Assembly (NCBI GenBank): GCA_021792365.1
Contig: JAJYUT010000001.1
Location: 620,001 to 684,000, forward strand
Length of the DNA stretch: 64,000 bases
DNA from: Pseudomonadota bacterium
GTDB lineage: Bacteria > Pseudomonadota > Alphaproteobacteria > Dongiales > Dongiaceae
Reading direction: 5' to 3'
The notes under the pieces were generated by a model that was not told the origin of the DNA, ran no database searches, and worked only from the letters and a program-made list of their open reading frames with translations. Positions 1,870-31,142 of the stretch are shown piece after piece. Every line of letters starts with the position of its first letter. The stretch's first letter is position 1. A program made the translations under genes and the position numbers.

Positions 1870-3924
1870 TTATCCAAGGGTGAGCGCCGTGCCCAGCCCC
1901 TTCGGGTGCGTCACCGGCAGGCCGCAGGTCTGGCCCCTGCACACATAGGCCGCCGGCTTGCCGTCCACCATGCCCTTGCCGTGGGCCGGGTGTCTCTCCG
2001 GCAATTGCGCGTCCGGCGTCACCACCTGCAGCAGGCGGTTGGGCAAGGAGCGCGCGTGCACGGCGTGGATGAGGGCACGGGTGGCGTCCGAATCGGCCGG
2101 CCCCACCACCACGATCTGCAAGGCGTTCTCCAGGAACTCGTTGCTGTTGATGAGGGTGGCGAGGGGAAAGAAGTTGCGGCCCAGCTCGCCCGAGAAGGCG
2201 GCGATCAGCGCGTGCGCGCGGTCCAGGTAGCGCTCCTCGCCCGTCAGGTGATGGAGCCGCGCCAGCACGCCGACCATCGCGCCATTGCCGTTGGGAATCG
2301 CGCTGTCCGCCGCCGACTTGGGGCGCTGGATCACGTCCGTCACGTCATCGGCGGTCATGAAATAGCCGCCGTGCTCCCGCTCCCAGAAATGCGCGTCGAG
2401 CAGCGCAACCAGTTCCTGCGCCGCGTCGAGGTATTGCGCCTCCTGCGTCGCCTCGTGCAGCGCCAAGGCCGCCGTCGCGAGATGCGCGTGATCATCGAGT
2501 GTCGCCGCGTGCTGCAGCTTGTCCGCACGCCAGGCGTGGAACAGGCGGCCACCCTTCATCATCGTGATGCGGATGAATCGGAAGGCGCGCGTGGCGAGGG
2601 CAAGCCAGTCCGGCCGCTCGAACGCCATCGCCGCCTCGGCGAGCGCCGCGATCATCAGGCCATTCCAGTCCGCCAGCACCTTGTCGTCCCAGCCCGGGCG
2701 CACGCGCCTGGCGCGCGCCGCCAGCAGCCTCTCGCGCGATTGCGCCAGGCGTCCTTCACCCGCCTCGTCCAGCAGCGACGATCGATCCGAGCGGTTGAGG
2801 ATGGTGTGCCCTTCCCAGTTGCCCTCCGCGCTCACATCGTAGTGCTGCTTGAAGAACACGGCCTCGGGGCCGAGCACGGAATCGATCTCCTGCTCGGTCC
2901 ACACATAGAACTTGCCTTCCTCGCCTTCCGAATCCGCGTCGAGCGAGGCGGCAAAGGCGCGGTCGCCTTGCGCATTCGGCGCGGCAAGCATCTCGCGCTC
3001 CAGCCAGGCGATGGTCTCGCTTACCCGCGCCGCATAGAGCGGGTCGCGCGTTTCCTGCCAGACCACGGCGAGCAGGCCCATCAACTCCGCATTGTCGTAG
3101 AGCATCTTCTCGAAATGCGGCACCAGCCAGTTGGCGTCGACCGAATACCGCGCGAAGCCGCCGCCGAGATGATCATAGATGCCGCCCTGGCTCATCCGCG
3201 TCAGGGTGACGGTCACGGCCTGCTTGAATCGCTGGTTCTTGGTGCGCTTGTAGGCGCGCCAGAACAGGTGGAACAGCGGTACCTGCGGAAACTTCGGCGC
3301 GCTGCCGATGCCGCCCTGCTGGAAATCCACCTCCTCCAGCAGGCGCTCGGCGACTTGGTCCGTGATCTCCGGCGAGATCGCGCCGCCGGCCTGCGGCGCC
3401 GCCAGCTTGGCCATCGCCTGGCGCAGCCCATCGACGTTCTTCTGCACCTTGTCCGGCTCCTGCGCGTAGGTCTCCGCCAGGGCGGTGAGGACGTCGGCGA
3501 AGCCCGGCCGGCCCCAGCGGCTGGTGGGCGGGAAATAGGTGCCGCCCCAGAACGGCCGCCCTTCCGGCGTCAGGAACATGGTGAGCGGCCAGCCGCCCTG
3601 CTGCCCCAAGAGCGCCAGCGCCTGCTGGTAGATCTGGTCGAGGTCCGGCCGCTCCTCGCGATCCACCTTGATGTTCACGTAGAGCTTGTTCATAAGGGCC
3701 GCGATCTCGGGATTCTCGAAGCTCTCATGCGCCATGACGTGGCACCAATGGCAGGCGGCGTAGCCGACCGAGAGCAGGATCGGCCGGTTGGTGCGCCTGG
3801 CCTCCTCCAGCGCCGCTTCCCCCCAGGGCCACCAATCGACCGGGTTGTCCTTGTGCTGCAGCAGGTAGGGCGATGTCTCTGCTGACAGCCGATTGTTCGG
3901 ATTGGGTGTATGAGTCTGTGCCAT
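1870..3924 (-). CDS. Thioredoxin-domain protein of the DUF255 / YyaL (SPATA20) family
   Basis: At 684 residues this is full length for the family: an N-terminal thioredoxin-like domain (about residues 10-170) followed by a long alpha/alpha-barrel like those of sugar epimerases. The family signatures NPVDWWPW and [13 protein letters not shown] are visible, and a CxxC pair (C58-H-W-C61) sits in [10 protein letters not shown] where the redox cysteines of thioredoxins lie. The protein has no signal peptide and should be cytosolic. Its substrate is unknown in the family. It is followed after 21 nt by ogt, so the two probably share a transcript. It diverges from dnaQ, with the promoters in the 181 bp between them. 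Confidence 0.92.
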
Positions 3925-4105
3925 GAGGGATGAACCTGCGAAAACGGAAGTCGCTCCGGAGTTGACGCCCGCCGGCGCGGCAAATCAATCCGGGATTCCC
4001 GTTCCCGCGGATTGGAGCGGGGCCCTCTCCCTCCCTTCCGCCACGTTGGAGGAGCGTGCGAATGAGAGTTGCCCCGACTCAGGCTCGTTCGCTATTTCTC
4101 CGGCC

Positions 4106-4783
4106 ATGCGGGAGATCGTCTTCGATACTGAAACCACCGGCTTCGAGCCCGGAGAAGGGCATCGGATCGTCGAGATCGCGTGCCTGGAGCTGCTCAACCA
4201 GATTCCGACCGGGCGGCGCAAGCAGTTCTACCTCAACCCCGAACGCGACGTGCCGGAGGCGGCGTTCCGCATCCACGGCTTGAGCGGCGAGTTCCTGCGC
4301 GACAAGCCGAAATTCGTTGAGATCGTCGACGAGCTGATAGAGTTCATCGGCGATTCGCCGCTGGTGGCGCACAATGCCGAGTTCGATATGCGCTTCCTCA
4401 ATGCCGAGCTCGGCCTGGTGAAGCGCGCGACCCTGCCGCTCGACCGCGCCATCGACACCGTGCGCCTGGCGCGCCAGCGCTTCCCCGGTTCGCCCGCCAG
4501 CCTCGATGCCCTGTGCAAGCGCTTCGCCATCGACAACACGCAGCGCACCTTGCATGGCGCCCTGCTCGACGCGCAATTGCTGGCCGAGGTCTATCTGCAA
4601 TTGCTCGGCGGGCCGCAGACCGGCCTCAGCCTTACCTCTGCCGCGGAGGAGGCCGCCCGCGCCGCGCTCAGCGTGGTCGGCCGCATCATCCGCCCCGCGC
4701 GCCCGCACGCCGCGACCGCCGAGGAGCTTGCCGCCCACGCCGCCTTCATCGCCAAGCTCAAGGATGCGGTGTGGCTCGGGTGA
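4106..4783 (+). CDS. dnaQ: DNA polymerase III subunit epsilon (3'-5' proofreading exonuclease)
   Basis: DEDD-type exonuclease that proofreads for the replicative polymerase. ExoI is FDTETTG (acidic D7 and E9), ExoII is [10 protein letters not shown], and ExoIII contains [14 protein letters not shown] with the catalytic His and Asp. At 225 residues it matches alphaproteobacterial DnaQ. The ATG at 4106 directly precedes the ExoI strand. The frame is open upstream to an ATG at 3923 inside the divergent gene's start, but that 61-residue extension has no family counterpart and was not used. In many alphaproteobacteria dnaQ lies next to secB; here secB is 4 kb downstream, so the old neighbourhood is loosely kept. 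Confidence 0.96.
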
Positions 4784-4856
4784 GCTGACGGCTCTCTCCT
4801 TCCAGCTTCACACAGTCCAGCAAAGCGCGGCTTTGGCATGACCGCAGAGAGTGGCC

Positions 4857-5168
4857 CTATTCCTCCGCGTTCTTGAGGATTGCCGCCAGCAAGCCCGGGA
4901 AACGCCGGTTGAGCTCCGCACGGCGCAGCGAGACGCGGCAGCGCATGCCCTCGGGGCGCGTGGTCGTGAGACCCGCTTCGCGCAGGATCTTCAGATGATG
5001 GCTCATGGTTGATTTCGGGATGTCGCCGGCCAGATCGCCGGCGGAATGCTCCGCCCCGTCCGCCAGCGCGCGCGCGATGGCAAGACGCGTCGGATCGCTC
5101 AGCGCGAACAGCAACGCGTGCAACTGCACGTCCTCGATCCGAGGCTGTGTGAAATCGCGCTCGCTCAC
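4857..5168 (-). CDS. ArsR-family winged-helix transcriptional regulator
   Basis: A 103-residue single-domain protein with the ArsR-type helix-turn-helix: ALSDPTRLAIARAL, then the recognition helix KSTMSHHLKILREAGL at residues 52-67, then a wing with GMRCRVSLR. Such proteins are dimeric repressors released by a metal or by modification of cysteines. The only cysteine seen is C77 in the wing, and no classical CxCxxC metal site is present, so the inducer is probably not arsenite. It diverges from a glutathione S-transferase gene, and the 231 bp between them hold a 20-bp inverted repeat and 14-bp tandem repeats. The likely target is that GST gene (inference). Confidence 0.9.
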   Translation of the reverse strand: MSERDFTQPRIEDVQLHALLFALSDPTRLAIARALADGAEHSAGDLAGDIPKSTMSHHLKILREAGLTTTRPEGMRCRVSLRRAELNRRFPGLLAAILKNAEE

Positions 5169-5236
5169 CGCAAGCCAGCCATCGATTCAGGCCATGGATA
5201 CCGGGGCATCACCTCAAGACCACCAAATTCGGGCGC

Positions 5237-5286
5237 GCGAAATCGGGCGGGCGAAATCGGGCGGGCGAAATCGGGCGGGCGAAATA
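5237..5286. repeat. 14-bp tandem repeat, three full copies plus a partial
   Basis: Three head-to-tail copies of a 14-bp unit beginning GCGAAATCGGGCGG (5237-5250, 5251-5264, 5265-5278) are followed by a partial GCGAAATA. A degenerate fourth copy lies just before. It sits between the divergent arsR-type gene and the GST gene, nearer the regulator, in the presumed control region. Copy number may vary by slippage. Confidence 0.9.
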
Positions 5287-5337
5287 GACACCTGACAAAT
5301 TGACCCTTGCAAAGGGGCGCGCGCAGGTTATCTGCTG

Positions 5338-6739: not shown

Positions 6740-7174
6740 ATGAAGGTCCTCTACACCACGCAGGCGACCGCGACGGGCGGGCGCACCGGCCGTGCCAAGA
6801 CTGCCGATGGCATCCTCGAGGTCGATCTTGTCACGCCGAAGGAACTGGGCGGTCAGGGCAATCCGCCCGGCGGCAAGGGCACCAATCCGGAGCAGCTTTT
6901 CGCCTGCGGCTATTCGGCCTGTTTCCTCGGCGCGATGAAATATGTGGCGGGGCAGGAGAAGCTGAAGCTCTCCGATTCCACCACGGTCACGGCGACTGTC
7001 GGCATCGGCCCGCGCGACGACGGCAAGGGCTTCGGCATCGACGTGGAACTCGCCATCCGGATCCCGGATCTCGATCGCGCCGCTGCCGAGGGCCTGGTGC
7101 AGAAGGCGCACGTGGTCTGCCCCTATTCCCACGCCACCAAGGGCAATGTCGACGTGCGGCTGAAAGTGGTCTGA
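6740..7174 (+). CDS. ohr: Organic hydroperoxide resistance protein
   Basis: A thiol peroxidase that reduces organic and fatty-acid hydroperoxides using lipoylated proteins. At 144 residues it is full length. The peroxidatic Cys is C61 in GYSACF and the resolving Cys is C127 in HVVCPYSHATKGN. The preceding NPEQLFACGYS carries an extra Cys (C56) where most Ohr proteins have Ala. GGGAG lies before the ATG. No OhrR-type MarR regulator gene is adjacent, so control is not visible here. A second, OsmC-type member of the same fold lies at 9631-10107. Confidence 0.96.
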   Translation: MKVLYTTQATATGGRTGRAKTADGILEVDLVTPKELGGQGNPPGGKGTNPEQLFACGYSACFLGAMKYVAGQEKLKLSDSTTVTATVGIGPRDDGKGFGIDVELAIRIPDLDRAAAEGLVQKAHVVCPYSHATKGNVDVRLKVV

Positions 7175-7271
7175 AACGCATAGGGCGCTTCAAGCCGGCA
7201 CGGCACGCGCGCTGGAACCTTCCTGATGCTCCGGCCGTTGTGGCAGCAGGACCCACAACGCGCGAGGCCGC

Positions 7272-7649
7272 ATGGCGTCGCTGTGCTTTCGTACCGCCGT
7301 CATTCTGGCCCTGATTGCCGCGGGCCTCGCCTTGTGGATGACGGCCACCCGTGATTTCCGTGCGTTGCCGGCCGAGGTAGTGCTGAACCTCCTCGGCTGG
7401 GGCTCCTTCATGATCTACGGGCTCTACTACCGGTCGGTGGCGGGCGCGGCAACGGTCCGGCTTGCGCGCCCGCACTATGTGGTCGCCCTCGTCGGCGTCG
7501 TCGTCGAAGCGATCGGCATCGCCGGCACCGCGTGGGGCAATCCATTCTTCGATCCGATCCGGATCATCGGCGCCTTCATCGTCGCGGTAGGCTTCATCCT
7601 GTTCGCCACGATCGTGTTCGGAACGCGCGAGGCGGCGTCGCAGTCCTGA
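7272..7649 (+). CDS. Small four-helix membrane protein, paralogue of the next gene
   Basis: A 125-residue protein with about four hydrophobic segments and no other domain. The core LNLLGWGSFMIYGLYYR is clearly related to LNLLGWVSFFIFGGYYA of the next gene, and both begin with FRTA-I-LA and have a DFR before the core. Proteins with an H-x-H-LNLLGW core resemble one part of haem-copper oxidase subunit I and are sometimes annotated as such. Here the histidines are replaced (LPAEVVLNLLGW), so haem or metal binding is doubtful. It lies 86 bp before its paralogue in the same direction, consistent with tandem duplication. Function unknown. Confidence 0.75.
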   Translation: MASLCFRTAVILALIAAGLALWMTATRDFRALPAEVVLNLLGWGSFMIYGLYYRSVAGAATVRLARPHYVVALVGVVVEAIGIAGTAWGNPFFDPIRIIGAFIVAVGFILFATIVFGTREAASQS

Positions 7650-7734
7650 GCCCGCTGTGGCGCGGATCAGAGGTATCCTCCACGCCGCCGCGCGTCGTGC
7701 TATCCTGGCCTCCTTCACGGAGGGGGCTCCCATC

Positions 7735-8121
7735 ATGTCCATGCCGTCCTTGTTCTTCCGCACCGCGATTCTGCTCGCCATCGCCGGGATCACACTCGGC
7801 ATTTTCATGGGCGTGAACCAGGATTTCCGTCTGGCGCACATGCACGCACATCTCAACCTGCTCGGCTGGGTCTCGTTCTTCATCTTCGGCGGCTATTACG
7901 CGCTCGCGCCGCAGGCCAATGCCGGCATGCTGCCCAAGCTGCATTACGGCCTCTGCCTCGGCGGGCTGCTGGTCTTCATGACCGGGCTGACCGGGATCGG
8001 CCTCACCGGCGACGTTGCCATGGCGCCGTTCGCCGCCATCGGGTCGCTGCTGGTCCTCGCCGGCTTCATCGTCTTCGCGGTGATCGTGTTCCGCACGCGG
8101 GTCGCGCCGCGCACGGCCTAG
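7735..8121 (+). CDS. Small four-helix membrane protein with HMHAHLNLLGW core
   Basis: A 128-residue membrane protein with about four predicted helices. The motif HMHAHLNLLGW (around residues 35-45) keeps three histidines that could bind haem or a metal. The family is found in alphaproteobacteria and is often named as cytochrome-oxidase-I-like, without proven function. The ATG at 7735 follows a strong GGAGGGG, so an upstream in-frame start at 7657 was not used. Its stop overlaps the stop of the convergent thpR gene by four bases. It is a tandem paralogue of the preceding gene, which has lost these histidines. Confidence 0.8.
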   Translation: MSMPSLFFRTAILLAIAGITLGIFMGVNQDFRLAHMHAHLNLLGWVSFFIFGGYYALAPQANAGMLPKLHYGLCLGGLLVFMTGLTGIGLTGDVAMAPFAAIGSLLVLAGFIVFAVIVFRTRVAPRTA

Positions 8122-8693
8122 AGCGCGTCGCGGCGCTCCGCTGCGGCCTCGACGGGCGCGCTGAGCGCGTAGGAGCGCAACGCCGTATAGACCGCCTGCT
8201 CGCCGCCCATCTCGCTGGAATAGAGCGTGAAATGGGTGACCTCGAAGGGCTCGGTCTTGAACAGGCTGTGTTCGGCCAGGTAGTGCTGCAGCTTGTGGAG
8301 CGGAGCGTCCTTGGGCCGGGTCAGCGTCACGTGCGGGGTGTATTTCTGCCCGTCGGGCGGCAGGCCGGCCCTCACCACGGCGGATTCCACCTTGTCGTGC
8401 AGGTGCTGCAGCGCCGGCTGCTTCTCCACCCCGGCATAGACCGCCTTCACCCGCTGGCCGGAGGTGAAGGCGTCGACCCCCTTGAGGCGCAAGGCGAAAC
8501 GCGGCGCGCGGATGCCGGCCAGGGCGGCGTCCACGTAATGGGCGTCGCGGCCGTCGACCTCGCCCAGGAAACGCAGCGTGATGTGGAGGTTTTCCGGCGG
8601 CACCCAGCGGTTCGCGCCCGCCAGCCCGCCGCACAGGAGACGCAGTTGCCAGCGGATGTTGTCCGGCAACGCCAGGGCCACGAACAGGCGCAT
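8118..8693 (-). CDS. thpR: RNA 2',3'-cyclic phosphodiesterase (2H phosphoesterase)
   Basis: A 191-residue member of the 2H superfamily, which opens 2',3'-cyclic phosphates at RNA ends. Both catalytic HxT motifs are present: HITL at residues 37-40 and HVTL at 121-124. The start MRLFVALALPDNI is typical of the family. It is convergent with the upstream membrane-protein gene, overlapping it by four bases at the stop codons (CTAG). No partner gene for tRNA ligation or 2'-5' linkage processing is adjacent. Confidence 0.93.
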   Translation of the reverse strand: MRLFVALALPDNIRWQLRLLCGGLAGANRWVPPENLHITLRFLGEVDGRDAHYVDAALAGIRAPRFALRLKGVDAFTSGQRVKAVYAGVEKQPALQHLHDKVESAVVRAGLPPDGQKYTPHVTLTRPKDAPLHKLQHYLAEHSLFKTEPFEVTHFTLYSSEMGGEQAVYTALRSYALSAPVEAAAERRDAL

Positions 8694-8911
8694 TCGACAC
8701 CAACCTTCGCGGGCGCTCGTCGCCCGCGCAATCGCACGATCGTCACCTTAACAGCCGGCCCGCCGAATCCCAACCGTCAATTCCGGCCCCGAATCGGCGG
8801 TTGTTACGAATCCGATTGCCCCTCGGGAACGCGCCCGTTGGGGTTTGCCTTGGCCGGTTGGAAGTGCTAGCGGAACGCCAACCGAACCCAAACCGATCCA
8901 GGACGTAGATC

Positions 8912-9466
8912 ATGGCCGAGAACGAAACCAAGGGCGGCGGCGCCGCATCCGGCGATGCCCAAGGGAACGCGCCGGAGGCAAATGCACCGGGTGCGGGCTT
9001 CCCGCTCACCGTCGTCACGCAATATGTCAAGGACCTGTCCTTCGAGAATCCAGGCGGCCCCGATTCCCTGGTCTCCCTCAAGGAGGCGCCGCACGGCACC
9101 GTGCGGGTCGACGTGCGGGTGCAGCCGCGCACCCCGCCGGAGATCGAGATCATCCTGTTCCTGGCGGTGGAGGCCAAGGCGAGCGACAAGGTCGTCTATG
9201 TCTGCGAGTGCGAGTATGGCGGCATCTTCCGCCTGGGCCGCGTGTCGCAGGAGGTCGTCCTGCCGCTCATCATGATCGAGGCGCCACGCCTGCTCTTCCC
9301 CTTCGCGCGCCAGGTGATCGCGAATGCCGTGATCGCAGGCGGCTTCCCGCCGCTGCTCATCAACCCGATCGACTTCGCCGCGCTCTATCGCGACAAGCGC
9401 GAGGAGATGATGAAGCAGGCCGCCGCCGCCAAGCCCGAAGGCGACGGAAAGCCGGCACTGAACTGA
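8912..9466 (+). CDS. secB: Protein-export chaperone SecB
   Basis: A tetrameric cytosolic chaperone that keeps preproteins unfolded and hands them to SecA. The 184-residue protein has a Gly/Ala-rich N-terminus, then the conserved core QYVKDLSFENP, the EIEIILFLAVEAK strand and the LLFPFARQVIANAVIAGGFPPLLINPIDF block, which is the SecB signature. SecB is expected in proteobacteria with a large exported proteome; this window alone encodes three porins and several lipoproteins. The 218 bp upstream separate it from the divergent thpR gene and should hold the promoter. Confidence 0.97.
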   Translation: MAENETKGGGAASGDAQGNAPEANAPGAGFPLTVVTQYVKDLSFENPGGPDSLVSLKEAPHGTVRVDVRVQPRTPPEIEIILFLAVEAKASDKVVYVCECEYGGIFRLGRVSQEVVLPLIMIEAPRLLFPFARQVIANAVIAGGFPPLLINPIDFAALYRDKREEMMKQAAAAKPEGDGKPALN

Positions 9467-22054: not shown

Positions 22055-22486
22055 CTAAGTGATCAACGCCCATAGCATCAGGAGCACCGCACCGCAGCCG
22101 AGCAGGCTTCGGCCGACGTGCAAACTGCCCCAGCGTTGCAGCAGCGCGCGGGTTTCCGGCCCGGCGGCGGACGGATCCGTCGCCATCAGCCTTCGGTTAA
22201 TGGGCGCTATGCAGAGCATCGTGTAGGGCCAGTTGGCGATCATCAGCAACCCGCCGATCAGCCAGAGCCAATCGTTGCTCCGCCACCACACCAGCATGGC
22301 AAGCAGGAACCCGACGAGGGCGAGCGAAGCCTGCATGCGGGCGCCGCGCTCATAGGCCGGCTGCCACTGCGCCAGGGCCGCGCGATCATCGAGCAGCAGG
22401 CGTGCGGGATGCTCGGCGAGCGCAATGTAGAACGCGGCGCCGGTGAACAGCGCCGCCACGATGAGCGCGAGTTCCTTCGCCAGCAT
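22055..22486 (-). CDS. DUF1772 membrane protein
   Basis: A 143-residue protein with four hydrophobic segments: about residues 5-25, 52-70, 73-92 and 122-142. Characteristic features are FYIALAEHPARL near the N-terminus and WPYTMLCIAPINRRLM in the third segment, as in the DUF1772 (anthrone oxygenase-like) family. The function in bacteria is unknown. It lies 53 bp downstream of the dodecin gene on the same strand, so the two may be one operon. The 30-nt yifB copy is only nine bases beyond its stop. Confidence 0.88.
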   Translation of the reverse strand: MLAKELALIVAALFTGAAFYIALAEHPARLLLDDRAALAQWQPAYERGARMQASLALVGFLLAMLVWWRSNDWLWLIGGLLMIANWPYTMLCIAPINRRLMATDPSAAGPETRALLQRWGSLHVGRSLLGCGAVLLMLWALIT

Positions 22487-22539
22487 GACCGCCTACTCCC
22501 TTTCCGAGCGGCCCGCCGCGAAGCGCCACCTGTGATCGG

Positions 22540-22773
22540 TCAGCGCTTCTTCTTGCGGTCGTTTTCGCCCTGGTATTTGAACGACACCTTGAGCTTGGTG
22601 CGGAAGGCTTCGACCTTGCCCCCTTCGATCACAAGGTCCTGCTCGATCACTTCGGCGACGCGCAGATCGCGCAGCGTGCGCGAGGCCTGCTTGACCGCGA
22701 CCATCGCCGCGTCCTCCCAGGACTTGGTGCTGGTCCCGATCAGCTCGAGCACCTTGTAGACGCTCTCGGCCAT
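22540..22773 (-). CDS. Dodecin family flavin-binding protein
   Basis: A 77-residue protein, MAESVYKVLELIGTSTKSWEDAA, with the dodecin pattern through DLRVAEVIEQDLVIEGGKVEAFRTKLKVSFKY. Dodecins form hollow dodecamers that store or buffer flavins. It has a basic tail, ENDRKKKR. GGGAGGGAACA lies before the ATG at 22773; an upstream in-frame ATG at 22812 was not used. In many dodecins a Trp stacks on the flavin; here the only Trp is in KSWEDAA. The ribA gene of riboflavin synthesis is 20 kb away and not obviously linked. Confidence 0.92.
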   Translation of the reverse strand: MAESVYKVLELIGTSTKSWEDAAMVAVKQASRTLRDLRVAEVIEQDLVIEGGKVEAFRTKLKVSFKYQGENDRKKKR

Positions 22774-22847
22774 TGTTCCCTCCCACCGGTTCCATCCTCG
22801 GCCCCAATCCAATCACGGCCGGGCCGTCGCCGCAACCCGAGGCTGTG

Positions 22848-24885: not shown

Positions 24886-25470
24886 ATGAACGTGGCGCAG
24901 CGCACGGCTGGCGCGCTGGACATCATCCAGACGCGCGAACTCACCAGCCGCGAAAGGCGCGATCTCACGCACCTATGGGCAAAGCTTTACTGGCGGGATG
25001 AGAACGGCTGGCTCGACAGCACGGCCAGCTCGCTCTGGTACGGTTTCGCGGGCTTCCTCGGCATCTCGGTCCTGATGGCGGTGAACCGCTTGGCCGATCT
25101 GGCACCGGCGCTTTCCGCTCAGCTCGCCTTGGCCGCGATCGGCTTTGCGGCCGCCGTGGTCCTGGCGCACTGCCTCGCCGATCGCCAATACAGGCAGAGA
25201 CTCTGGAGCGGTCTGCGTGCCGGCGACCGTTATGTGATGACCGACAACGGCGTGCAGGCCAGAGCGACACGCGGCGAATACTCGTGCGGCTGGACCAGCA
25301 TCGAAGAGATCGTGGACGATGAGCGCCTTTTGATCGCGCTGCTGGGCGGCAACAGCGGCTTCTTTATAGTGAAAGCTGCCTTCGAAGGGCAGAACATCGA
25401 CGCGTTCGGCAGCGAGTTGCGGCGCCGCTGGCAGGAACGCCGCGCCGCCTCGGGTCCCGCCGCTCCATGA
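24886..25470 (+). CDS. Membrane protein with YcxB-like cytoplasmic tail
   Basis: A 194-residue protein with two hydrophobic segments (about residues 46-64 and 76-95) followed by a C-terminal domain. SGLRAGDRYVMTDNGVQARATRGEYSCGWTSIEEIVDDERLLIALLGG has the strand pattern of the YcxB-like domain (split here for description: it starts SGLRAGDRYVMTDNG and ends LLIALLGG). The function is unknown. GGGGAGCGACG precedes the ATG. Its stop overlaps the start of the next gene (ATGA at 25467-25470), so it is translationally coupled to the EF-G-like protein. That coupling suggests a joint role, but none is known to me. Confidence 0.8.
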   Translation: MNVAQRTAGALDIIQTRELTSRERRDLTHLWAKLYWRDENGWLDSTASSLWYGFAGFLGISVLMAVNRLADLAPALSAQLALAAIGFAAAVVLAHCLADRQYRQRLWSGLRAGDRYVMTDNGVQARATRGEYSCGWTSIEEIVDDERLLIALLGGNSGFFIVKAAFEGQNIDAFGSELRRRWQERRAASGPAAP

Positions 25471-26357
25471 CCGTCACCACCCACGTCCTCTCCATCCCGC
25501 TGACGCCGCGCGATGAGCGCGCCGCGTGGCACTTGCGTGCGCGCCTCGAGACCGTGTGCGCGGAGGATGCAGCCCTCGCCACGGAGGATGGCCCGGGGGG
25601 CGAGATCGTGCTCAAGGGTAGCGGCGAGCCGCAGCTCGAATGGGTGATCGGCCATCTGCAAAGCCAGGCGGACCTTGCCTTCGCCGTGGGCGTGCCGGAG
25701 GTGCGCTATCGCGAGACCATCACCCGCACGGTCGACTGGACCTATACGCACAAAGAAGAAGACCCGCCGCAATTCGCGGTGCTCCGCATCCAGTTGACGC
25801 CGCTGCCGCGCGGCGCGGGCGTCGAGACGGAGATCCGCTGCCCGTCCGACGAGATCCCGCCCCACATCCCCTTGCCGGAGTTCCGGCGCGCGATCGAGGC
25901 CGGCATCCACGCCGCCTGCATGGCCGGTGTGGTCGAGGGCTTCCCGCTCACCGACCTGCAGGCGGTGATCCTCGATGCCGGCTGGCACGACACGGATTCG
26001 ACCCCCGAAGCCTTCGAGGCCGCCGCGTGCCTTGGCCTGCGCGAGGCGCTGCCGCGCGCGCGGCCTTGGCTGCTGGAGCCGGTCATGATGGTAGCCGCGC
26101 TTGCGCCGGAGAAATTCGTGAGCGAGGTGACCGCCGATCTCGGCCGGCGCCGCGGCAGGCTGCAGACCCTCGCCGTGCATGGCGGCATCGCCGCCATCAC
26201 CGCCCTGGTGCCGTTCGCCGATCTCGCCGGCTATGACAACGATTTGCGCGCCATGACCCGGCGCCGTGGCGCCAGCGCCATGGCCTTCGACCACTATGCC
26301 GAAGCGCCGTCCCCACCCGACGGCTCGGAATCGCCGCCGATCGGCCCGCGCGCGTGA
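25467..26357 (+). CDS. G-domain-less EF-G-like protein (domains III-V only)
   Basis: A 296-residue protein that aligns by eye with the C-terminal half of elongation factor G and related ribosomal-protection factors. Domain III is residues 1-85 (VLSIPLTPRDERAAW..., GSGEPQLEWVIGHLQ, VPEVRYRETITR). Domain IV is about 86-205 (FPLTDLQAVILDAGWHDTDS). Domain V is about 206-285 (LLEPVMMVAALAPEKFVSEV, DLGRRRGRLQTL, YDNDLRAMTRRRGASAMAFDHY). The GTPase domain and domain II are absent, and the start codon coincides with the start of domain III, so this is not a simple truncation. Start and upstream stop overlap as ATGA. A ribosome-binding role without GTP hydrolysis is inference. Confidence 0.85.
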   Translation: MTVTTHVLSIPLTPRDERAAWHLRARLETVCAEDAALATEDGPGGEIVLKGSGEPQLEWVIGHLQSQADLAFAVGVPEVRYRETITRTVDWTYTHKEEDPPQFAVLRIQLTPLPRGAGVETEIRCPSDEIPPHIPLPEFRRAIEAGIHAACMAGVVEGFPLTDLQAVILDAGWHDTDSTPEAFEAAACLGLREALPRARPWLLEPVMMVAALAPEKFVSEVTADLGRRRGRLQTLAVHGGIAAITALVPFADLAGYDNDLRAMTRRRGASAMAFDHYAEAPSPPDGSESPPIGPRA

Positions 26358-29726: not shown

Positions 29727-29891
29727 GCGCGGCAACTCAGGGCTCTCTCCTCGATGCGAGTCGAGAGGGTTGCGCACCGATAGGTAAGCGCGCGCGCAAG
29801 GGAAGGGATCCTTCGCGTGGCTACAACTCGCAAAATCCTGCTCCACAGGCCTCCGCGATAATTGTGCCGCGTGCTGGCGGATGCGGCTACC

Positions 29892-31142
29892 ATGGCCCGC
29901 ATGCCGAGTCGCGCCGACCCACTCCGCGAGATTGCCGCCTTCAACAAGGGCCGACATCCGGAGCTTCTCGCGCTCAAATACCGCAAGATGGCGGCCTCGC
30001 CCTTCGGCTATTTCCGCGGCACCAACCACCTGTTCCATGCCGACTGGCCCGGCGCGGCCTGGCTCGAGCGCATGCCCGCGGTATGGCTGAACGGCGACCT
30101 GCACCTTGAAAATTTCGGCACCTATCGCGGCGACAACCGCCTGGTCTATTTCGATGTCGGCGACTTCGATGATGGCGCGCTGGGCCCGACGGGCCGCGAT
30201 CTCCTGCGCTTCATGGTCGGCTTGCACATGGCCGGGCACGATCTCGGCTTCGGCGCGCGCCGCGCGAACGCGCTCAACCGCACCTTCCTCGCCGGCTATC
30301 GCGCGGCACTCATCCAGGGCAAGGCGCGCTGGATCGAGCGCCGCACCGCCGGCGGCGTCATCGGCGAATTGCTGGTGAAGCTCGAGCGCCGCACCCAGGC
30401 CGACCTGCTCGCCAAGCGCACCACGCTCCGCAAGGGCCGGCGCCGCCTGCGCACCGACACCGGCAAGGCGCTCTCCCTGCCAAGCGCGGAGCGCGCCCGC
30501 GTCGTCGCCTTCATGAAGCGCTTCGCGGAAGGGCGCGCGCGTCCCGGCTTCTTCCGGGTGCTGGACGTGGCGCAGCGCATCGCGGGCCTCGGCACGCTGG
30601 GGCTGAAGCGCTACGTGGTGCTGGTCCAGGGTGATGGCGGGCAGGACGGCGCGGCCTTGATCGATCTCAAGAGCCAGATCGGCTCGACCCTCGTGCCGCG
30701 TCTCCGGCAGCGCCAGCCGCGCTTCGGCAGCGAAGCCGCGCGCGTGGCGGAGATCGAGAACCGCATGCAGGCCATGGGGCCCGCCTTTCTCACGCCGGTG
30801 CGCATCGCGGGGCGCAGTTTTACCCTGCGCGAGTTGCAGCCGAGCGCCGACAAGCTCGACCTCTCCAGCACGCACCCCGAACGGGCGGAGCTCGACCACG
30901 TCATCAGCCTGATGGGCGAACTCACCGCCTGGGCGCAGTTGCGCTGCGCCGGGCGCGACGGCGCCGCCACCATCGACGGATTGATGGCTTTTGCGCGAAA
31001 TGCCGATTGGTGCCGGCGGTCGGTCGCGCTCGCCGCGGATTGGGCTGGCGCGATCTTCGAGGATTGGCGCGGCTTTAGCGACTCCGCCCTCGTGACCTGG
31101 GCCCACGCGCAGGGCGGATCGGCGCGCCGGCTGCCGCGATAA
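29892..31142 (+). CDS. DUF2252 family protein (kinase-fold-like)
   Basis: A 416-residue member of DUF2252. Its signatures are KYRKMAASPFGYFRGTNHLFHADW, then VWLNGDLHLENFGTY and VYFDVGDFDDGALGP, which resemble the catalytic and metal loops of aminoglycoside-phosphotransferase-like kinases (HGDLHxxN, then DFDD). Quoted pieces are FGYFRGTNHLFH, NGDLHLENFG and DVGDFDDG. The likely activity is phosphotransfer, but no substrate is known. ATGs at 29892 and 29901 are both possible starts; an upstream TTG at 29862 was rejected. It stands alone between a dioxygenase and a sensor kinase on the same strand. Confidence 0.9.
   Translation: MARMPSRADPLREIAAFNKGRHPELLALKYRKMAASPFGYFRGTNHLFHADWPGAAWLERMPAVWLNGDLHLENFGTYRGDNRLVYFDVGDFDDGALGPTGRDLLRFMVGLHMAGHDLGFGARRANALNRTFLAGYRAALIQGKARWIERRTAGGVIGELLVKLERRTQADLLAKRTTLRKGRRRLRTDTGKALSLPSAERARVVAFMKRFAEGRARPGFFRVLDVAQRIAGLGTLGLKRYVVLVQGDGGQDGAALIDLKSQIGSTLVPRLRQRQPRFGSEAARVAEIENRMQAMGPAFLTPVRIAGRSFTLRELQPSADKLDLSSTHPERAELDHVISLMGELTAWAQLRCAGRDGAATIDGLMAFARNADWCRRSVALAADWAGAIFEDWRGFSDSALVTWAHAQGGSARRLPR

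Follow-up and report, generated by a model that had tools for sequence, protein, structure and literature searches.

The window, the whole stretch of 64,000 nucleotides analysed here, carries a gene for a protein that consists of domains III–V of elongation factor G (EF-G) and stands alone, without the G domain and domain II; judged by sequence comparison, it and its relatives are best called a G-less EF-G paralogue family in Alphaproteobacteria, one that is apparently undescribed. The gene (gene A; positions 25467–26357, plus strand, as for all features of the window given below) starts with ATG and encodes 296 residues followed by a stop codon, without internal stops in the list of open reading frames. 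Three Pfam domains are matched in the order found in EF-G, namely EFG_III (PF14492; residues 6–74, 25482–25688; E-value, 3e-4), EFG_IV (PF03764; residues 77–198, 25695–26060; E-value, 3e-18), and EFG_C (PF00679; residues 202–282, 26070–26312; E-value, 4e-18), corresponding to domains III, IV, and V, respectively. The EFG_III match is weak (21.2 bits, under the curated cut-off of 27), and domain III is also the most diverged part of gene A in the per-domain comparison. The NCBIfam EF-G model (TIGR00484) is aligned only from position 400 to 679 of its 691 positions, with a score of 160 bits against the 659 required, so that the start of gene A coincides with that of domain III, and no part of it corresponds to the G domain or domain II. 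Neither the frame nor the locus contains a G domain (PF00009) in the Pfam and whole-genome searches, and the β-barrel of domain II is absent from the NCBIfam alignment. The domain content and the start at domain III thus agree with a sequence-only reading of the window, which had described a G-less protein whose start codon sits exactly there and had proposed the profile search.

The AlphaFold2 model of gene A is confident (pLDDT, 92.7; pTM, 0.83) except for the C-terminus, which has low pLDDT and is predicted to be disordered. In a Foldseek search, the model matched the III–V part of solved EF-G structures with TM-scores of up to 0.88 by query length, in support of the domain order including the sub-cut-off domain III. 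No NCBIfam model covers gene A, all the matches being to models of full-length GTPases far below their cut-offs, and no other ribosome-factor family outside the EF-G relatives was matched in Pfam or NCBIfam. PADLOC gave no match for gene A or its neighbor, and a defense system was rejected on this basis.

Immediately upstream, a gene for a YcxB-like membrane protein of 194 residues (24886–25470; PF14317; E-value, 1.5e-5), with hydrophobic stretches, overlaps gene A by an ATGA stop–start junction (25467–25470) indicative of translational coupling; a sigma-70 promoter scan found no promoter. The same arrangement of YcxB-like gene, ATGA overlap, and gene A recurs at the orthologous loci of two other genomes of the genus to which the window belongs, Dongia (G002 and G003), with gene A products showing 75% and 69% identity to that of the window. 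The overlap with a membrane protein gene, noted in the sequence-only reading, and the recurrence of homologues of about 296 residues next to the same upstream gene, which it had proposed as a check, were thereby substantiated. The YcxB-like gene was detected only in the three Dongia genomes among 21 searched, and its product evolves faster than that of gene A (48% and 31% identity among Dongia). When named genomes were scanned with the window protein, only Dongia deserti was retrieved, other matches being at about 30% identity or less, as is typical of ordinary EF-G. The ratio dN/dS (NG86) is 0.22–0.39 among the three copies of gene A. Gene A is a conserved coding gene under selection. A local truncation of EF-G is rejected because the same locus is G-less in both relatives, and a fusA pseudogene or fragment is likewise rejected in view of the dN/dS values, the lack of stops, and the G-less orthologous loci; neither of the findings that the sequence-only reading had named as fatal to it, an intact G domain at the locus in relatives or a frame without purifying selection, was made.

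The genome of the window (5.4 Mb in 30 contigs) encodes a second stand-alone III–V gene, copy B, located far from gene A (copy A) at positions 105059–105949 of contig C9 (minus strand at 8060–8950 of locus L034). Copy B is present in all three Dongia genomes; in the two relatives it follows gene A in tandem on the same strand. It is more EF-G-like than copy A, has likewise a confidently predicted EF-G III–V fold, and shows dN/dS of 0.23–0.29 among its three representatives. The genome also contains a normal EF-G (frame of 695 residues) and an EF-G2 (694 residues). If gene A were one half of a split EF-G, it would have to be paired with a G domain and domain II encoded by another gene, and its complementary domain content is the only feature in keeping with such a system. 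However, none of the 14 PF00009 hits in this genome resembles an orphan EF-G-type G domain, their frame lengths fitting known GTPases. Barring a gene missing from the assembly, this refutes a split EF-G for the genome, and we regard it as extremely improbable. The gene A product may instead work with the G part of the intact EF-G.

Loop I of domain IV in EF-G (QTGGSG; GGSGQ) is replaced in copy A by a shorter EEDPP/EDPPQ (EEDPP in the window, residues 97–101, 25755–25769), its glycines being lost in all three A copies, and a five-residue insert (~HIPLP; residues 133–137, 25863–25877) is found in domain IV of the A copies only. Loop II, HDVDS in EF-G, is HDTDS in gene A (residues 174–178, 25986–26000) and in one further A copy, and TDSDS in the G003 orthologue; the HDTDS loop pointed out from the sequence alone is thus present and corresponds to loop II of domain IV, its histidine being a threonine in G003. 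Of the 160 positions invariant in the aligned EF-Gs, or invariant in all but one of them, 72 differ in every A copy, the loop I glycines included, and 22 are retained across every stand-alone protein. In most of the B copies and other stand-alone copies (B and S in our alignment), loop II is recognizable as HD/HE-x-DS and several also retain loop I; of the three B copies of Dongia, two have the glycines of loop I. Since the tip of loop I is lost in the window's copy A, copies A and B probably differ in their mode of action.

These features bring to mind a fold put to new use, in which at least copy A has left the ribosome for an unrelated, possibly membrane-associated role with the YcxB-like protein. 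The operon with the membrane protein, overlapping and conserved though confined to Dongia, the loss of loop I together with the domain IV insert, and the long branch leading to the A copies in the tree described below are all consistent with it. Nevertheless, most of domain V and of loop II is retained, the AlphaFold2 model shows the EF-G III–V fold intact, and the copies outside Dongia have no YcxB-like neighbor; we consider this possibility rather unlikely, yet worth keeping in sight.

Outside Dongia, stand-alone III–V genes for proteins of ~295–300 residues were found in seven genomes: one of another genus of the window genome's family (G010), five of family f5 belonging to two genera (G020, G311, and G823; G279 and G298), and one of family f81 (G375). 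Whereas EF-G ends with a C-terminal helix (...IADEVRAKMA), the stand-alone proteins have tails, such as DDDFPMAAALRA, DDNFPPAIGMRA, PPFRPAIGMRA, DPRFPGAMGMRVA, and DPRFPPAAAMRMRA, approximating the pattern F.PA..[ML]R.A, which is absent from EF-G. Among the 2,151 stop-terminated frames of at least 100 codons in the loci examined, the tail-end pattern occurs only in stand-alone genes. In gene A, the tail (residues 283–296, 26313–26354), which coincides with the low-pLDDT region and takes the place of the last helix of EF-G, is a shortened version ending with PPIGPRA, and the two Dongia relatives, as read from the DNA, have LPLRLRA and QPLAMRV. The window copy has the domain III start of the family while its tail is missed by the tail profile, which copy B of the same genome matches; because A-type tails escape the profile, the counts based on it are lower bounds. 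The profile retrieved at least three stand-alone genes in 385 evenly drawn alphaproteobacterial genomes (~1%). In the order of G020, 5 of 96 genomes gave hits, whereas outside the genome with copy B a set of 398 Pseudomonadota genomes gave none in its remaining 397. The family therefore appears rare, with ~1% as its least share among Alphaproteobacteria drawn evenly, and was not seen in other Pseudomonadota; several of its members come from what are apparently fragmented draft genomes or MAGs.

The locus of the stand-alone gene is syntenic between G020 and G311 as well as among Dongia. In two species, the gene (7224–8126 of locus L038 and 6748–7647 of locus L089) lies between the same two neighbors, one of which encodes a protein of ~575 residues; the other is a short gene that we take to be DUF1491-like. 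Between lineages the adjoining genes differ, so that the gene context provides no functional link to translation.

Several further candidates were set aside. Because of their position at contig ends, the short frames of G323 and G269 were not counted, nor was one in G274 that belongs to a disrupted EF-G2; there (3294–5327 of locus L094), EF-G2 is divided into a G-domain frame (318 residues) followed by a III–V frame (317 residues), a split that may be genuine or may result from a frameshift or an error of assembly. An extra EF-G paralogue of G267 (2773–4833 of locus L134), a member of a genus in which two relatives have the stand-alone gene, was considered as a full-length tailed intermediate and rejected, for its 686 residues include the G domain and lack the tail. 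A viral or phage origin was rejected as well, all 16 matching loci of viral contigs being full-length frames of ~690–710 codons, and no stand-alone III–V gene was evident among the phage records listed, most of which are unannotated. Carriage by plasmids was rejected too, the annotated best hits being EF-G and the two Rhizobiaceae hits that were inspected proving to be full-length paralogues.

The relationship of the stand-alone genes to fusA differs from domain to domain. In the whole-length tree, stand-alone genes adjoin the EF-G of their own lineage in several cases, the A clade has a long stem branch, and a single clade of all stand-alone genes is rejected (p-AU, 0.0009; 2e-5 with fewer rows). 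Tested separately, domain IV alone strongly rejects a single clade (p = 6e-55), whereas domain III (p = 0.63) and domain V with the tail (p = 0.15) do not. Consistently, domain IV of copy B in the window's genome shows 93% DNA identity to the genome's own fusA, with identity at 52 of 61 fourfold sites, as compared with 53% and 5 of 13 fourfold sites for domain III. Domain IV thus tracks the host fusA, unlike domain III and the tail, and the gene has the look of an old mosaic; we read this as one old family, the central part of which would repeatedly have been overwritten by gene conversion from fusA. The tail would have escaped, since nothing in EF-G corresponds to it. The grouping by domain III may, on the other hand, be due in part to long-branch attraction, as its branches are long. 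Furthermore, fourfold identity to fusA is low outside Dongia (e.g., 20 of 49 sites), which keeps in play that the genes arose independently more than once and that their tails converged, an alternative that we consider unlikely though of some weight. The apparent domain-wise exchange with fusA under preservation of the tail would represent an unusual case in which a core gene of translation and its truncated paralogue evolve in concert.

The position of stand-alone genes beside the host EF-G, the rejection of one clade over the whole length, and the patchy distribution would also be expected if the genes were functionless, recent partial duplicates of fusA, born several times independently and now decaying. 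This explanation is largely refuted by dN/dS well below 1 and the lack of stops, by the same tail in all lineages, by the synteny of the loci, and by domain III, which on its own is compatible with one clade, and we regard it as very unlikely. The sequence-only reading, correct in recognizing a stand-alone III–V protein, had missed the change in loop I, copy B, the tailed family, and the apparent exchange of domain IV with fusA.

Compared with known systems, the family shares with EF-G (fusA product) domains III, IV, and V in the same order, the fold, and in most copies the HDxDS loop II, but lacks the G domain, domain II, the GTPase, and the C-terminal helix, in place of which it has the tail; the loop I glycines kept in EF-G are lost in copy A. 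The closest counterpart in content and size is EF-GC3 (301 residues; PDB ID: 2mzw; PMC4725979), which is folded in solution but is a laboratory truncation without the tail and not a natural gene. A Bacteroides EF-G paralogue without GTPase activity, cited in PMC12775393, is likewise derived from EF-G and active without GTP hydrolysis. The tetracycline-resistance proteins TetM/TetO match domains III–V weakly (best NCBIfam score, 81 bits against a cut-off of 775) and are full-length GTPases, whereas gene A stands in no resistance context and does not qualify as a ribosomal protection protein. Unlike gene A, the Bacteroides paralogue (Han et al. 2023) is reportedly full-length and acts as a translocase. 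A natural EF-G of III–V-only form was not found described in the open literature searched, in line with the earlier statement that no such protein was known, and two surveys covering duplicated EF-Gs and translational GTPases do not contain the word "truncated".

Based on the domain content and start, the orthologues, the selection, copy B, the tailed family, the host-like domain IV with loop II retained in most B and S copies, the absence of a free G domain from the genome, and the confident fold, we favor, with slightly less than even confidence, a putative GTP-independent ribosome ligand that competes with or modulates EF-G-type factors. The protein would adopt the fold of the EF-G half that mimics tRNA, and would transiently engage the ribosomal A site and the factor-binding region without GTP. 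What EF-G gains in affinity or localization from its G domain would here come from the tail or, in Dongia, from the co-translated membrane protein. In the sequence-only reading, too, the protein had been taken as a possible A-site binder without GTP hydrolysis, acting as a competitor, hibernation, or rescue factor. That a III–V fragment is able to fold by itself follows from EF-GC3, engineered from Staphylococcus aureus EF-G and studied by NMR (PMC4725979; PDB ID: 2mzw), and we infer that the family would act on the ribosome without GTP, the tail or the partner adding affinity. That an EF-G derivative can work there without a GTPase has a precedent in the EF-G paralogue that translocates without hydrolysis (cited in PMC12775393). 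The loss of the loop I glycines of copy A in all three species, the changes at 72 of the 160 invariant positions, and a gene context that varies between lineages speak against a ribosome ligand. The affinity of EF-G rests largely on its G domain and GTP, and therefore an isolated III–V module may bind poorly.

Alternatively, a free III–V module could serve as a decoy or for target protection, soaking up or shielding from EF-G binders such as argyrin-type antibiotics, FusB-like proteins, or EF-G-modifying toxins. A decoy would require a host-like domain IV such as this one, FusB attaches to domains IV and V of EF-G and binds EF-GC3 with an affinity comparable to that for EF-G (PMC4725979), and the solved argyrin B–EF-G complexes (PDB IDs: 7ug7 and 4fn5) have their ligand sites in this half or nearby. 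Nonetheless, no resistance or toxin genes were seen adjoining the family genes, PADLOC recognized neither gene A nor its neighbor, and copy A is strongly diverged; we hold the decoy to be unlikely. Returning to the ribosome ligand, a wider and more tentative proposal, to which we give appreciable but clearly less than even credence, is that the family constitutes a putative new class of GTP-independent ribosome factor, in which one half of EF-G would enter the A site by domains III–V plus the tail, conversion by fusA would keep domain IV compatible with the host, and two copies would have specialized in Dongia, one of them co-translated with a membrane protein. How the work of EF-G is shared between binding with tRNA mimicry and the GTPase is a live question (PMC12775393), and a natural, selected EF-G reduced to the half for binding and mimicry would offer a ready means of testing it.

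Around the gene A locus, a dodecin gene and an anthrone-oxygenase-like gene lie upstream in the window (22055–22812), a dodecin-like gene being located also near the locus in both Dongia relatives, and a DUF2252 protein is encoded at 29862–31142 (PF10009; E-value, 2e-75).
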